A stretch of 64,000 nucleotides of DNA from Fundidesulfovibrio magnetotacticus. Its GTDB lineage: Bacteria > Desulfobacterota > Desulfovibrionia > Desulfovibrionales > Desulfovibrionaceae. Below, one piece after another: positions 51,065 through 55,916 of this stretch. Within the stretch, counting starts at the first letter, position 1. Each line of letters opens with the position of its first letter. Below the pieces are notes generated by a model. That model saw nothing but the letters and a program-made list of their open reading frames with translations, made no database searches and was not told the origin of the DNA. The translations under genes were made by a program, and so were the position numbers. Where the stretch lies: assembly GCF_013019105.1 (NCBI RefSeq), contig NZ_BLTE01000014.1, positions 1 to 64,000 on the forward strand. Reading direction: 5' to 3'.

Positions 51065-51427
51065 TCAGCCTCCCGAGAGCTTGGCGGTGTGCCCCAGGGC
51101 CTTGAGCTCCTGGAGCAGGGCCTCGCGGTGGTCGCCCTGGATCTCGATCACGCCGTCCTTGACCGAGCCGCCCGTGCCCAGGCGCTGCTTGAGCTTCTTG
51201 GCCAGGGATTCCAGCCCGGCCTGATCCAGCGGCAGCCCTGTGACCAAGCACACGCCCTTGCCCTTGCGGCCCTTGGTCTGGCGCTGGATGCGCACTCCGG
51301 GGCCTGCCGGAGCCTTGGCCGGACGCGCGGCGGAGCAGGCGCAGGACTCGACGGGGCGGCGGCACTCCGGGCAGAGGCGGCCCTGTTCGGTGGAATAGAC
51401 GGGGCGGGAATCCTTTGCGTTACCCAT
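51065..51427 (-). CDS. SUI1/YciH-type translation initiation factor homologue
   Basis: A 120-residue protein with a zinc-knuckle-like N-terminus (RLCPECRRPVESCAC) and a SUI1/eIF1 domain (RKGKGVCLVTGLPLDQAGLE, LKQRLGTGGSVKDGVIEIQG; GTGG is the family core). Bacterial YciH proteins resemble eukaryotic eIF1 and can affect initiation fidelity in vitro. ATG at 51427 follows AAGGAG. The longer open frame upstream is a shadow. It is 128 bp upstream of the hybrid kinase on the same strand. Confidence 0.9.
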   Translation of the reverse strand: MGNAKDSRPVYSTEQGRLCPECRRPVESCACSAARPAKAPAGPGVRIQRQTKGRKGKGVCLVTGLPLDQAGLESLAKKLKQRLGTGGSVKDGVIEIQGDHREALLQELKALGHTAKLSGG

Positions 51428-51851: not shown

Positions 51852-52033
51852 GACGCCAGGATGCGCCGGACCGGGGCGGGCGTCAAGGGCGTGGTGGCTG
51901 GAGCGGACCCCCCGCGAGCAAATGATGGCTGACCCCTTGCGGTCGGAGCATGACGTGCAACGAGGCAGGCAGGTAATCCAATCAACGCGCCGTCTGCTGT
52001 CATGACCGGCCAATCCATCGCCACGGAGCATTC

Positions 52034-52819
52034 ATGACCGAATCAGGCCAGGCAGGGTCCCGCCTTGCCACCAAGCGACGCTTCTCCTTCGCATCCGGCG
52101 TCAGCTTTGAGGCGCGCATTGATCCGCCGGACGGATTGGTGACGTTTGTCGATGTGCTGCCGGATATCTATTCGATATCGGACGAGCTGGTCTCCATGTC
52201 GGTCAAAGACCAGGCCGCCAGGGGGCAGCATGTTTCCTGCGCGAGAGGGTGCACGCTCTGCTGTAGACATCTGGTCGCCGTTTCCGACCACGAAGCAATT
52301 CTTCTCGCACACATCATCAACAACATGCTTGAAGGGGACGAGAAGCAGAGCCTGCTCAGGCGACTCGGCAAAATCGTCTCCATCCTGGAACGCACGGGCC
52401 TGCTGTCGGAGATGATCGACAGTCATGCGAACGCATTCGCGGACAGGGGGCGGATCATCAATGCTCAGCGAAGATACTGGGAGATGCAGATTCCGTGTCC
52501 ATTTCTTGTGTCGGATTCCTGCAGCATCTATCCCTACCGTCCCTTTCTCTGCAGGCAGTATCTTGTGAGCTCCCCGCCTGTCTCTTGCGAAGGAAGCTTC
52601 AAGGCGGACCATCTCGTCCGGAAAGTAACCGTAAAATACGACCTGGCGAGCGCAGCAGCCTCGTTCGACGGCTGTGAGGCCAAATCCACCATGGCGATCC
52701 CGTTGCCTGCGATCAATATCGTCAATGGCTTGCTGAGCAATTTCCGCAGGCCAAAAGCTCCCGCTGACGTCATGATCGCTGCTTTTCTCAGGCATGCCGA
52801 AACGCACTTTTCGGGATGA
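52034..52819 (+). CDS. YkgJ-like cysteine-cluster protein
   Basis: A 261-residue protein with the zinc/iron-chelating CxxxCxxCC motif (SCARGCTLCCRHLV) and a second cluster (CPFLVSDSCSIYPYRPFLCR) typical of YkgJ/UPF0153 proteins. It is longer than usual, with an added C-terminal helical region. Base composition is lower in GC and codon use more mixed than its neighbours, and it opens the 52-54.3 kb lower-GC patch, so it is probably acquired. ATG at 52034 follows GGAGC. Function of the family is unknown. Confidence 0.8.
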   Translation: MTESGQAGSRLATKRRFSFASGVSFEARIDPPDGLVTFVDVLPDIYSISDELVSMSVKDQAARGQHVSCARGCTLCCRHLVAVSDHEAILLAHIINNMLEGDEKQSLLRRLGKIVSILERTGLLSEMIDSHANAFADRGRIINAQRRYWEMQIPCPFLVSDSCSIYPYRPFLCRQYLVSSPPVSCEGSFKADHLVRKVTVKYDLASAAASFDGCEAKSTMAIPLPAINIVNGLLSNFRRPKAPADVMIAAFLRHAETHFSG

Positions 52820-52939
52820 CACCCTGAGACGGCATGCAGCCTTCCTGCGCTCCAAGACGAGGAACAGCCTACGTCCCCAAAGTCGGTTTGGTTGCTCCCT
52901 GCGCGCGCTGGCCGTTCAGCTGGCGCAACCGCCCATTAA

Positions 52940-53358
52940 ACCGGGGGCAGGATAGGAATCGCCCGGGCAATCCTGGAGGAACAACTGGCCTGGGCGGCGG
53001 CGGCCTTTTCCGACAGCCCTTATGTGTTCCCCGGCAGAGGCGGCGTACTAAGCATCGACTCCAGCGCCGTGGACCGAATCAAGGCGACCGCGCGGCTTCC
53101 CAAATCCTTCCGCATTCTTCACGGCCTGCGCCATCATTTCGCTGTGACCCTGGCCAACTCCGGAGAATTCACACTGGACATGATCGGTGAACTTCTTACA
53201 CACAAATCAACGGCCATGACCCGGCGCTACGGGCATTTCTCCCTGACGCCAAGACGCGAGCCAGCGACAAGGCTGCGGGATTGCTGGCCAGCCACGCAGG
53301 GCTTGACGCGAAGCCTGCCAGGGGCAAGAAGGTGGTCAAGACCGGGGGAGGGGAGTAA
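52940..53358 (+). pseudogene. Decayed tyrosine recombinase (phage integrase C-terminus)
   Basis: Only the last part of a tyrosine recombinase survives. In one frame: SDSPYVFPGRGG, then HGLRHHFAVTLAN (the H-x-x-R box), LLTHKSTAMTRRYGHF (the H/K and catalytic Tyr box, Tyr at 53228-53230). The first catalytic Arg and the whole N-terminal domain are missing, and no start precedes it (stop at 52937-52939). After FS the frame shifts by one base near 53243: the natural tail continues as DAKTRASDKAAGLLASHAGL to the TAA at 53356-53358. So it is 5'-truncated and frameshifted, and cannot be active. Confidence 0.85.
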
Positions 53359-53361
53359 CCA

Positions 53362-53628
53362 ATGCCCGTCATTTGCCGGTTCTATGGAGTCATTATCCGC
53401 ATGAATTACAACGAGAGCGGGCACCACACGCCTCATTTTCATGCGTACTACGGCAAGCACGTCGCCTCGATAGCTATTGACTCAGCCGCTGTCCTTGCTG
53501 GACAACTTCCGTTGCATGCGGAAAGATTTGTCCTGGAATGGGCCGCACTGCATCGGACGGAGCTTACGGACAACTGGCGACGGGCATCCATGCATGAATC
53601 CCTTTTGGCCATCGAGCCGTTGGAATAG
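53362..53628 (+). CDS. DUF4160 protein, probable toxin-antitoxin component
   Basis: An 88-residue protein with the DUF4160 pattern: VICRFYGVIIRMNYNESGHH, TPHFHAYYGKHVASIAIDSA. The ATG is 4 bases past the end of the relict integrase tail, and its ribosome site (GGGGAG) lies inside that tail. It is followed by a DUF2442 gene, its usual partner. The pair is widely distributed on mobile DNA and is suspected, but not firmly shown, to be a toxin-antitoxin module. Confidence 0.85.
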   Translation: MPVICRFYGVIIRMNYNESGHHTPHFHAYYGKHVASIAIDSAAVLAGQLPLHAERFVLEWAALHRTELTDNWRRASMHESLLAIEPLE

Positions 53629-53638
53629 GAGAAAAGCC

Positions 53639-53902
53639 ATGGTGGATCATCTCATTCAGGCGCGCGGCGTGCTGCATCTTGGCGGTTTCCGGCTTCGTGT
53701 GCTCTTCAGTGACGGCGCGGTTCGTGACGTGGACCTGGAAAAGGAACTCTGGGGGCCGGTGTTTGAGCCCCTGAAGGACGTGGCCTTTTTCGCCCAGGCC
53801 TATGTTGACTCCGAGACCTGGACGGTATGCTGGCCCAACGGGGCGGACATCGCCACGGACACCCTGTATGAAATCGGCGTCCCGGTGGCGGCAGCGGCGT
53901 AA
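53639..53902 (+). CDS. DUF2442 protein, partner of DUF4160
   Basis: An 87-residue protein matching DUF2442: LRVLFSDGAVRDVDLEKELW, GPVFEPLKDVAFFAQAYVDS, WTVCWPNGADIATDTLYEI. ATG at 53639 follows AGGAGAAAAGCC. 10 bp after the DUF4160 stop, so the two are co-transcribed. DUF2442 proteins are usually small DNA-binding-like or antitoxin-like proteins; the exact role is not known. Confidence 0.88.
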   Translation: MVDHLIQARGVLHLGGFRLRVLFSDGAVRDVDLEKELWGPVFEPLKDVAFFAQAYVDSETWTVCWPNGADIATDTLYEIGVPVAAAA

Positions 53903-53921
53903 GCCTACAAGAGAGAAACGC

Positions 53922-54167
53922 ATGGGCCCTGTTCGTGACTATGACGACACTCTGAAAAAGCTGCTGCACGACCCGGAACAGGCGGCGCACTACTTGCGGG
54001 CCGCCTTGGAGGAAGAGGACCCCCACGCCCTGGCCTTGGCGATCCAGGATGTGCTTCACGCCGTCCGGCCCGAGCCCGTGGAGGACGCCGAGACGGAGGC
54101 TCTGTGCCGTGCCCTGACCGGACTGAAACGCGCCGGGGTGTCCGTGGATTTCCTGGCCGGACGGTAG
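53922..54167 (+). CDS. Addiction-module-antidote-like protein lacking the HTH
   Basis: An 81-residue protein. The first half (DDTLKKLLHDPEQAAHYLRA, ALEEEDPHALALAIQDVL) matches the N-terminal module of HigA2/YbaQ-like antidote proteins, which normally continue into an HTH with a RESLYRAL-type recognition helix. Here the region after residue 45 is PEPVEDAETEALCRALTGLK followed by a short tail, so the canonical HTH is missing or replaced. ATG at 53922 follows GAGAGAAACGC (weak site). It completes a three-gene group with DUF4160 and DUF2442. Confidence 0.65.
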   Translation: MGPVRDYDDTLKKLLHDPEQAAHYLRAALEEEDPHALALAIQDVLHAVRPEPVEDAETEALCRALTGLKRAGVSVDFLAGR

Positions 54168-54291
54168 ACCGTGAGGAGTGCCAGCGGATTTGGTTGCCGC
54201 TCGCGTTTTGTGGGCGGAATACCGGAGGCGGCTCGATGAACCTTCTTCCATATGTGCTGTCTAGGTTTGGGTATCACTAGGGTGTCACAAG

Positions 54292-54322
54292 AAAAAAAGG
54301 CCGCAGTGCTTGCACTGCGGCC
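54292..54322 (-). terminator. Rho-independent terminator of tRNA-Ala
   Basis: GGCCGCAGTGC (54299-54309) and GCACTGCGGCC (54312-54322) form an 11-bp stem with a TT loop. On the minus strand it is followed by a run of seven T (54292-54298). Confidence 0.9.
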
Positions 54323-54330
54323 CTTGTTTT

Positions 54331-54406
54331 TGGTGGAGGCGATGAGGATCGAACTCACGACCTCAGCGTTGCGAACGCTGCGCTCTCCCAGCTGAGCTAC
54401 GCCCCC
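54331..54406 (-). tRNA. tRNA-Ala (CGC)
   Basis: A 76-nt cloverleaf with encoded 3' CCA. The anticodon stem CAGCG/CGCTG encloses TTCGCAA, giving anticodon CGC (reads GCG codons). The acceptor stem contains the G3-U70 wobble pair that is the main alanine identity element. It has its own promoter and terminator. It borders the lower-GC patch with the decayed integrase, a common integration context. Confidence 0.95.
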
Positions 54407-54418
54407 GTGGAAACGTCG

Positions 54419-54447
54419 CCTTTATGCCTTTCGCGCGGCGCGGTCAA
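54419..54447 (-). promoter_or_regulatory. Sigma-70 promoter of tRNA-Ala
   Basis: On the minus strand TTGACC (54442-54447), 17-bp spacer, TAAAGG (54419-54424), with start about 54412. The -35 overlaps the stop region of the glycosyltransferase gene (54444-54446). Confidence 0.55.
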
Positions 54448-55916
54448 GGGATTATCCGCTCCAGCATGGCCGCAACCCGGCGGCGGTAGGTGTGCTCCCG
54501 GGCGATCAGCTCCCGCCAGGCCGGGGTCAATTCGTCCCGGCGGCGCGTCAGGGCTCCGATCCGGTCCGGAATTTCGCCCGGCGACGCGAAGCGCATGGGC
54601 TCAGTCAGTTCCCGGGGGAAGATCGAGAGGCCGGGCGTGGCGTCCGAGAGCAGGAGCCCCCCGGCCGCCCACACGTCGAAGTGCCGCTGCGTGAGCCCGT
54701 GGGGCAATAGCGGGCTCGTGGGGCCCAGCACGCAGCGCGCCGAGGCGTACATCCCGGCCAGGGGGCCGTAGTAGTCCACGGGCGGGCGCAGCTCGAAGGG
54801 CGCGTCCACCAGGGTTTTCCAGTCCGCGTCGCCGTACGCCACGAGGCGTCCGGCCCGGGCGGCGTGCGCGAGCACCGTGGCCCGCCAGGCGCGCCCGCAC
54901 TCCTCGGCCCCAAGGCCGGGACGCCGTGCCGCCCGGCCCGGCCAGAGCGTCTCCACGCCCAGTTCTCGCGCCCACCATGCGAAATCCGGCCGCTCCCCGG
55001 CGGCGAACATCTCCCGCGCGCGCTCCAGAAGCTCCGGCGGCACGCTCACGCCCGAAAAGAAGAGCCCCTTGTCCGGGAAGGCGCTGCGCCCCACGAAGAG
55101 CAGGGCGTCGGAGAGTTCCGGCGCGTCGGGCGCGGCCCGGAAGAAGTCCGGGTTGGCTGCCAGGGGCAGGTGGTGCACGCTCAATGCCCCGTGGGCCTTC
55201 AGAGGCTCCACGAACCAGGAATCCGTGACAAAAAGGTGCAGGGAACGCCACTGCACGGTTTTGAGCCCCGACAGGGCGTGGAAGGGGTTGTCCACCAGCC
55301 AGGCCGCCACGGGAACCCCGGCGCGCGCCAGCAGGGCGTGCTCCAGGCCGTAGGCCCCCTTGCCCCGGAAATTCACCGAGACGAACACGTCGGGCCTGCC
55401 CTGTGCCAGCAGCGCCGCCACGCCGCCCTCCGGCACGTCCAGCACCTCGTAGCCCTCCTGGGCCAGGGCCTGGGAGAGTTCGCGCGCGATAAGGCCGTCT
55501 CGCGAGCCGGGCACCACGGCCGTTCGGCCGGAGCGACGGGGCAGGGCGTCCGGCCTGGGCAGGGCCAGGGCTGCCAGCACCGGGCTCCAGAAGGAGGGGA
55601 AAAGCCGGGCCGAGCCCTCGTGCACCAGCACACCGGAGGCCGTCGCGGGGTCGAAGGCCTCCAGCCGCGTCCAGCCCCGGGGCACGTGGGATGCCAGCCA
55701 GTCGCGCCCGGTCTGTTGGAGGAAGGCCGGGCATTCCAGCCAGGCCACGCGCGCCCCCGGGGGGAGCTTGGCGGCCAGGGATGCCGGGTCCGGCCCCAGG
55801 CCCAGCACGGTCCAGTCGTTTCTGACGGCGGGGCGCGCCAGGGCGTGGCCGGGCTGGAGGGTCTTGGCCTGGCCCAACTCGTCGGTCAGGCGCAGGCGCG
55901 GGGGAGGGCTTGGCAT
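54444..55916 (-). CDS. CgeB-like glycosyltransferase
   Basis: A 490-residue protein with a GT-B layout. The N-terminal domain contains [20 protein letters not shown], and the C-terminal part has the spore-maturation CgeB/glycosyl-transferase motifs: [40 protein letters not shown] and a C-terminal helix with RERTYRRR-like character. No TM segment. Sugar donor and acceptor are unknown; protein or envelope glycosylation is likely. The ATG at 55916 follows AAAGG at 9 bases. It is divergent from rlmE. Confidence 0.8.

Follow-up and report, generated by a model that had tools for sequence, protein, structure and literature searches.

A low-GC patch at positions 52034–54330 was analysed in a 64,000-nucleotide (nt) stretch of Fundidesulfovibrio magnetotacticus (contig NZ_BLTE01000014.1, positions 1 to 64,000; hereafter the window), where a broken tyrosine integrase gene, a candidate toxin−antitoxin (TA) pair and a further antitoxin-like gene lie next to a transfer RNA (tRNA) gene. 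The guanine-cytosine (GC) content of the patch is 59.4%, against a mean of 68.8% (standard deviation 2.7%) for 2297-bp segments across the window, and the lowest such segment outside the patch has 61.6%, in agreement with the foreign-looking composition noted in a preliminary description of this DNA. On the plus strand the patch carries, in order, a YkgJ-like gene (52034–52819), the 3' third of a tyrosine integrase gene (52958–53358; residues 269–401 of 401), a DUF4160 (DhiT-like) putative toxin gene of 88 amino acids (53362–53628), the ATG of which lies 3 nt after the integrase stop, a DUF2442 (DhiA-like) putative antitoxin gene of 87 amino acids (53639–53902) and an 81-amino-acid gene (53922–54167). 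A plus-strand scar at 53903–53938, reading as the final 12 codons, counting the stop, of an HI1419-type toxin gene, abuts the DUF2442 stop (53900–53902) and overlaps the start of the 81-amino-acid gene. Beyond it lie a plus-strand direct repeat of integrase arm type, GGGTATCAC-TA-GGGTGTCAC (54269–54288), taken as the right border of an element, and a terminator-like hairpin with a T tail (54296–54325, minus strand), placed behind the tRNA gene as in relatives. The patch ends, as had been proposed, at a minus-strand tRNA-Ala(CGC) gene (54331–54406), the 3' end of which faces the patch; this end is a synteny breakpoint, and the gene is the likely integration site.

The integrase piece was recognised by the Phage_integrase profile on the open frame at 53024 with 27.1 bits, exactly at the cut-off. 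Its decay, also suspected earlier, was confirmed by alignment to the intact 401-amino-acid integrase of the sister species G002, to which 325 of 403 aligned DNA columns (81%) are identical; the first two thirds are missing and one net frameshift is present near residue 362. In a tree of 31 rows the remnant joined the eight closest intact integrases (that of G002 and seven with 73–81% identity to it) with support of 100/99, and the G002 integrase was its nearest relative. A native low-GC region with chance similarity to an integrase and no mobile element would be in keeping with a single weak Pfam match at the cut-off and with the lack of a direct repeat. The 81% DNA identity over 403 aligned columns, together with the conserved TA junction, the arm repeat and the variability of the locus in sister species described below, contradicts this explanation, which was rejected on comparison with the intact integrase and is regarded as extremely improbable.

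The two genes behind the remnant matched their Pfam families well above the cut-offs (DUF4160, 64.4 bits with a cut-off of 23; DUF2442, 50.0 bits with a cut-off of 23.9). The NCBIfam equivalog cut-offs were missed (DhiT, 71.5 of 100 bits; DhiA, 21.4 of 200), so by these scores the pair is a relative of DhiT/DhiA and not the same protein pair. The place of the pair is conserved. In all eight closest intact integrases a TA gene starts 3–6 nt past the integrase stop, and the slot is filled by DUF4160-DUF2442 in six (G030, G064, G067, G073, G153 and G286, the last with a GTG start and a DUF4160 that seems to be frameshifted close to its beginning) and by an HI1419-type toxin with a short antidote in two (G002 and G093). 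The integrase−DUF4160 junction in the window likewise measures 3 nt. The last integrase codons hold a purine-rich run where the Shine-Dalgarno sequence of the toxin gene is expected, and this run may serve as that sequence. HI1419-type pairs were also found behind integrases of other groups, 2 nt past the stop in G191 and with an ATGA overlap at a second G064 locus; behind the family's more distant integrases, that position is mostly taken by other genes. Judged by the integrase profile, 6 of the 59 DUF4160 loci fetched (29 from the same class and 30 from viral contigs) adjoin an integrase, and all six belong to the clade of the relic. Two side observations concern such slots. A long CRISPR-looking repeat array (clustered regularly interspaced short palindromic repeats) lies just behind the integrase−TA slot inside the 33.9-kb element of G030 (L041, 9200–11600), and at two loci of other families (L171 and L176) the DUF4160 gene starts about 11 nt behind another open reading frame (ORF), again a larger gene, the end of which presumably resembles FtsK.

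The preliminary description had grouped the three small genes as a TA trio, which the comparison with relatives replaces by a DhiT/DhiA-like pair followed by the left-over antitoxin of an HI1419 toxin. The product of the third gene is weakly antidote-like, scoring 17.6 bits against PF21716 (cut-off 27) and 18.7 bits against TIGR02684 (cut-off 53.7), and the gene itself shares 92.7% DNA identity with the antidote gene of the HI1419 pair of G002. Homologs of this gene follow HI1419-type toxin genes in relatives. Of the 44 further DUF4160 matches listed, 29 loci were fetched, and no such gene was found in 28 of them, the only case being the integrase slot of G030. On these grounds the third gene is assigned to the HI1419 pair rather than to DUF4160-DUF2442. 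The 36 nt of the scar read AYKRETHGPCS and a stop, and the HI1419 tail of G002 reads AYKGEKYEPYS and a stop. Outside the overlap with the antidote gene, 15 of 19 nt match G002, the best value among 127964 positions on both strands (runner-up, 13). This toxin tail, preserved between DUF2442 and the antidote gene, indicates that the DhiT/DhiA-like pair replaced the HI1419 toxin and that the antitoxin remained; DUF4160-DUF2442 thus occupies the place of most of the HI1419 toxin gene. Alternatively, the three genes could form a working three-part operon of DUF4160 toxin, DUF2442 antitoxin and an 81-amino-acid regulator or second antitoxin, given that all three are intact and co-directional with gaps of 10 and 19 nt, that G030 once had the same gene order, and that the nonsynonymous divergence of the third gene from G002 (dN, 0.057) is lower than the synonymous divergence (dS, 0.14; 18 changes). 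Such an operon is considered quite unlikely in view of the near absence of the third gene from other DUF4160-DUF2442 loci, the HI1419 tail in front of the window copy and the habit of its family of following HI1419 toxins; moreover, in G030 a stop interrupts the third gene, and DhiT and DhiA are whole.

The replacement of the toxin has counterparts in other mosaic loci. G030 carries DUF4160-DUF2442 followed by the stop-broken antidote gene, which has 95.8% DNA identity to that of G093; G093 carries an HI1419 pair and then a whole DUF2442; G163 carries the 3' part of an HI1419 gene, an antidote gene and a fragmentary DUF2442 of window type (84% DNA identity over 164 nt). In all four mosaics, the window included, each of the two antitoxins occurs, either complete or as a remnant, with at most one whole toxin. 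By the accepted logic of addiction modules an antitoxin cannot be lost ahead of its toxin, and the composition of the mosaics is what this order of loss would lead one to expect.

The third gene and its nearest relatives are also short. They encode 79–83 amino acids, and their matches to the HI1420 profiles are confined to the first half (the third gene covers positions 8–41 of 89 in NCBIfam and 8–43 of 90 in Pfam), so the window protein is akin to the N-terminal half of these antidotes. The usual form of 98–113 amino acids includes a C-terminal half, which, from the profile, we take to be the helix-turn-helix (HTH). The structure model of the third protein was poor, with a predicted local distance difference test (pLDDT) value of 56.5. 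Where a short antidote lies beside an intact toxin, the pair adjoins an integrase stop in 4 of 5 loci, with integrases of three groups, and for long antidotes with an intact toxin the figure is 0 of 40. These counts cover the loci that were fetched from longer lists; the short form served as the query, with G002 as one of its rows, and the profile used for scoring sees only recombinases like the remnant. A locus with a 74-amino-acid antidote and no toxin (L212) and four toxin-less long loci were left out of the survey, and L196 gave no antidote. The pattern suggests that antitoxins at integrase tails may have no need to repress a promoter of their own.

The border at the tRNA gene was compared with the ends of intact elements. 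In elements of the clade of the relic, which use tRNA-Met(CAT), a 44-nt tRNA half is repeated at both ends; the elements measure 32.8 kb (G064), 32.6 kb (G073), 26.6 kb (G067), 33.9 kb (G030) and 50.9 kb (G153). An arm-type repeat such as GGGTAGGAATAGGGTAGGAA stands 47 nt before the tRNA-Met 3' end, ahead of a hairpin, at 6 of 6 far ends, namely those of the five sized elements and that of G002, which lies on another contig and was assigned by its arm and whole tRNA. Outside this count, a third tRNA-Met copy in G030 (L131), the end of a further element, has a flank without an arm. Elements at tRNA-Ala(CGC), which belong to another clade of the same integrase family, show the same arrangement (G034, 29.4 kb; G190, 19.0 kb); ends of such elements were also found in G033 and G167, and the arm lies at 47 nt in all four loci. 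In the window the repeat GGGTATCACTAGGGTGTCAC (54269–54288) lies 42 nt from the tRNA-Ala 3' end, compared with 47 nt for the arms of relatives. The arms closest to it are those of G002, with 17, 16 and 15 of 20 letters in common, and the others compared share at most 13. The sister species G005 has an exact family arm at its own tRNA-Ala. The arms of the window and of G005 are best read as relics of elements in tRNA-Ala.

A direct repeat of the tRNA 3' end had been suggested near 52.0 kb, where it was not borne out: the search of the window returned one match, the tRNA itself, and no second copy of the tRNA half was found in the window, compared with two copies in intact relatives. A DNA search of the own genome matched nothing but the site, its inverted hairpin and, on a different contig, a stretch with 80% similarity. 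The direct repeats listed at 51.4–54.9 kb are short two-copy families for which no link to the element was apparent. Elsewhere, a lone tRNA-Met in G003 (L120) has a family-like arm 46 nt from its 3' end and is apparently a relic without a direct repeat. On contig C47 of G167 (L186, L100) a tRNA-Ala half and a stretch called as tRNA-Met by ARAGORN lie about 180 nt apart before one integrase, an arrangement that reads as stacked or nested elements.

Taken together, the patch is read, with a probability of about 0.75, as the wreck of a tRNA-integrating element of Desulfovibrionaceae at tRNA-Ala(CGC), in which the HI1419 toxin behind the integrase was swapped for DhiT/DhiA. The comparison shows that in this integrase clade a two-gene TA cassette lies directly behind the integrase stop, a slot still filled by the HI1419 pair in a sister species, and that in the window DhiT/DhiA took the place of the HI1419 toxin from just past the integrase stop to twelve codons before the toxin stop. 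The old antitoxin would have stayed, since the loss of a toxin can presumably be survived and the loss of an antitoxin ahead of its toxin cannot; it may also have been retained as a possible neutraliser of the same toxin on other elements. A later deletion would have removed the first two thirds of the integrase gene along with the left att site and the remainder of the element, with the DhiT/DhiA pair and the orphan antitoxin surviving. The cassette may have been translated from an integrase−toxin−antitoxin message, the integrase tail supplying the ribosome-binding site of the toxin, and translation from the integrase message would explain the loss of the autoregulatory DNA-binding half in short antidotes. 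In its widest form this can be extended, tentatively and with the odds somewhat against it, to integrase-tail TA cassettes as a distinct architecture, in which the integrase gene has taken over autoregulation and its 3' end provides for translation of the toxin, the antidotes are short and without a DNA-binding half, and the slot is exchanged toxin by toxin with the antitoxins left behind, so that the tail would become a layered record protecting the element against past modules.

Several observations weigh against this reading or narrow it. All eight closest intact integrases have a tRNA-Met(CAT) half upstream and not tRNA-Ala, and the users of tRNA-Ala that were found form a clade separate from the tRNA-Met-using group of the relic. 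The dS value relative to G002 is 0.14 for the antidote gene and 0.76 for the integrase piece, so the history of the locus probably includes more than one recombination or exchange. The left att half-site is gone from the window locus, and for this reason neither the limits of the element nor the identity of the integrase that acted at the site can be proven. The arm pattern was picked after the window repeat had been spotted by eye, and a match at 3 or fewer mismatches turned up somewhere in 16 of 100 shuffled windows; in the window itself GGGTATCACTAGGGTGTCAC is the sole match in 64 kb at that level to the G002-type pattern (0.17 expected), and its single mismatch is a level reached by 0 of 40 simulated windows. 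The mosaics do not represent four independent events, as G030, G093 and G163 fall in one genus. G011 has an intact short-antidote pair with an open-frame toxin and no adjoining integrase. DUF2442 was undetected at an expectation value (E) of 0.001 in 4 of the 29 DUF4160 loci (L152, L174, L176 and L177), so a toxin lacking a recognisable antitoxin does occur. A toxin mechanism could not be read from the fold: the DUF4160 structure model was good (pLDDT 93.1), but it gave no Foldseek match at E ≤0.001 and no match at Z ≥5 in a second structural comparison, and a search among solved-structure sequences returned no useful match (best E 0.79, 0.089, or none). In addition, no effect of a Thermus DUF4160 pair was visible in E. 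coli, according to the available portion of the source (PMC12724237).

Since the relic integrase groups with tRNA-Met users, either a switch of target or a composite of two elements has to be assumed. For the composite, an older tRNA-Ala element would have left the arm, and a broken integrase−TA piece of tRNA-Met type would have arrived later. Stacking of this kind does happen, as the G167 integrase with both tRNA-Ala and tRNA-Met halves upstream illustrates, and the sister species examined differ in their tRNA-Ala flanks; the arm, the hairpin and the tRNA, however, stand in the order of a normal right end, the window arm is nearest to those of G002 (17, 16, 15 of 20), the integrase of which is also nearest to the relic, and no second piece of an integrase was seen in the patch. 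A two-element origin is deemed unlikely, although a good deal less so than the three-part operon. The tRNA labels in the tree derive from anticodon-loop words (among 30 integrases, Met in 15, Met and Ala in 1, Ala in 4, Pro in 7 and none in 3); of 9 loci behind the Ala label, ARAGORN called the complete tRNA-Ala(CGC) in 3, the remaining loci having halves or changed copies, and beyond the loop words the Pro label has one tRNA-Pro(CGG) about 9 kb from one Pro-labelled integrase. The tRNA gene that the closest intact elements use, tRNA-Met(CAT), is also present in the window, at 924–1000; it has one match in its own genome and seems empty, and on its 3' side, to the left, GC is low (52% over 1–1000). 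Of the preliminary idea of a mobile-element relic, the tRNA-integrating element with TA genes kept and integrase mostly lost thus persists, strengthened by the arm repeat in the place usual for the family; a simple insertion by the relic integrase is not supported, as it would need a change of target or a composite element.

The site itself proved variable. For five sister species, DNA similarity to the window sets in at 54323–54329, where the tRNA 3' end lies, and past this point the ORFs are different; in the sixth, with a genome 66% complete, no match to the tRNA locus was found. The comparison for an empty site at tRNA-Ala that had been proposed earlier yielded none, its positive outcome being this break in five species. 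G005 keeps both flanks (44.9–50.9 kb and 54.3–57.3 kb) with 3.3 kb between them that is unlike the window. At the tRNA-Ala(CGC) of G002 (L035) a threefold TGTGCCACA repeat occurs with adjoining genes, which we take to be phage-like, and in G003 (L036) a 24-nt copy of the tRNA-Ala(CGC) 3' end lies about 9 kb away; other types of element seem to use the same tRNA-Ala(CGC). The yciH/SUI1 gene (51065–51427) adjoins the patch, and its homologs in six sister genomes lie elsewhere; within 20 kb around each sister yciH, only yciH matched window positions 44–64 kb. The gene seems to be displaced in the window genome.

The remaining gene of the patch, encoding a YkgJ-like CxxCxxCC protein of 261 amino acids (PF03692, 24.8 bits with a cut-off of 23; GC 57.0%), had been counted as a member of the island. 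Its membership of the element is not supported: the relatives examined, homologs with 49–50% identity in two sister species, sit in core-like regions; their neighbours, named from translations, are presumably recA- and mscL-like genes. A defence system was also discarded as an explanation, as PADLOC gave no match at E 0.5 for the five proteins tested. Spread via plasmids or phages was likewise set aside: a DNA search of plasmids with 52000–54330 gave no match. The short antidote of G002 had one weak plasmid match and none in viral contigs, where the search shows only loci fitting two peptide patterns, and the 262 phage records resembling the G002 integrase were all below 60% identity. A promoter scan of 51900–54450 found 0 candidates, with 0.7 expected by chance.

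Among known systems, DhiTA of Dickeya dadantii 3937 consists, in the available part of its description, of a toxin that inhibits growth and a second protein that neutralises it in both Dickeya and E. coli (PMC8198452). The window pair shares the toxin-first order of DUF4160 and DUF2442, but the DhiA model has 160 positions, of which the 87-amino-acid window protein covers only 10–71, and the window pair follows an integrase and is itself followed by a foreign antitoxin. In Thermus thermophilus a DUF4160/DUF2442 Persistence Enhancing Module follows the rep gene of plasmids and raises persistence; a plasmid without the first ORF gave transformants and one without the second ORF gave none. The same two genes are thus carried by a mobile replicon and follow one of its key genes, although that gene is a plasmid rep gene rather than an integrase gene, and no swap is described in the portion of the article available (PMC12724237). 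Compared with HI1419/HI1420 modules (Gp49-like toxin and HTH antidote, TIGR02684), the third gene resembles the N-terminal half of the antidote, but it has no C-terminal HTH half and its partner toxin is reduced to 12 codons. Orphan antitoxins occur commonly and have been proposed to act against addiction, as far as the accessible parts of the reports go (PMC7192599, PMC12548467); the window antitoxin was similarly kept without its toxin, whereas the window displays the replacement itself, with the incoming pair in the place of the toxin and the toxin tail still present. A double-RNase system was dismissed as a match, being BrnT-like and not naming DUF4160 in the part of the source at hand (PMC10714953). 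In literature on integrase-tail TA genes and replaced toxins, searched mostly below full text, neither a scarred swap behind an integrase nor short antitoxins at integrase tails were recognised.

TA modules on mobile elements are common, and the replacement of one module by another is seldom visible at the nucleotide level. At this locus the junctions can be seen, the new pair beginning at the start of the old toxin and ending 12 codons before its end, with the old antitoxin still whole. The locus suggests a testable rule for the turnover of addiction modules, by which toxins would go and antitoxins would stay. It also points to a connection of integrase expression with addiction that could likewise be tested. 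Finally, the combination of arm repeat, hairpin and tRNA 3' end may serve as a footprint for decayed elements in which neither an integrase nor a direct repeat has survived.

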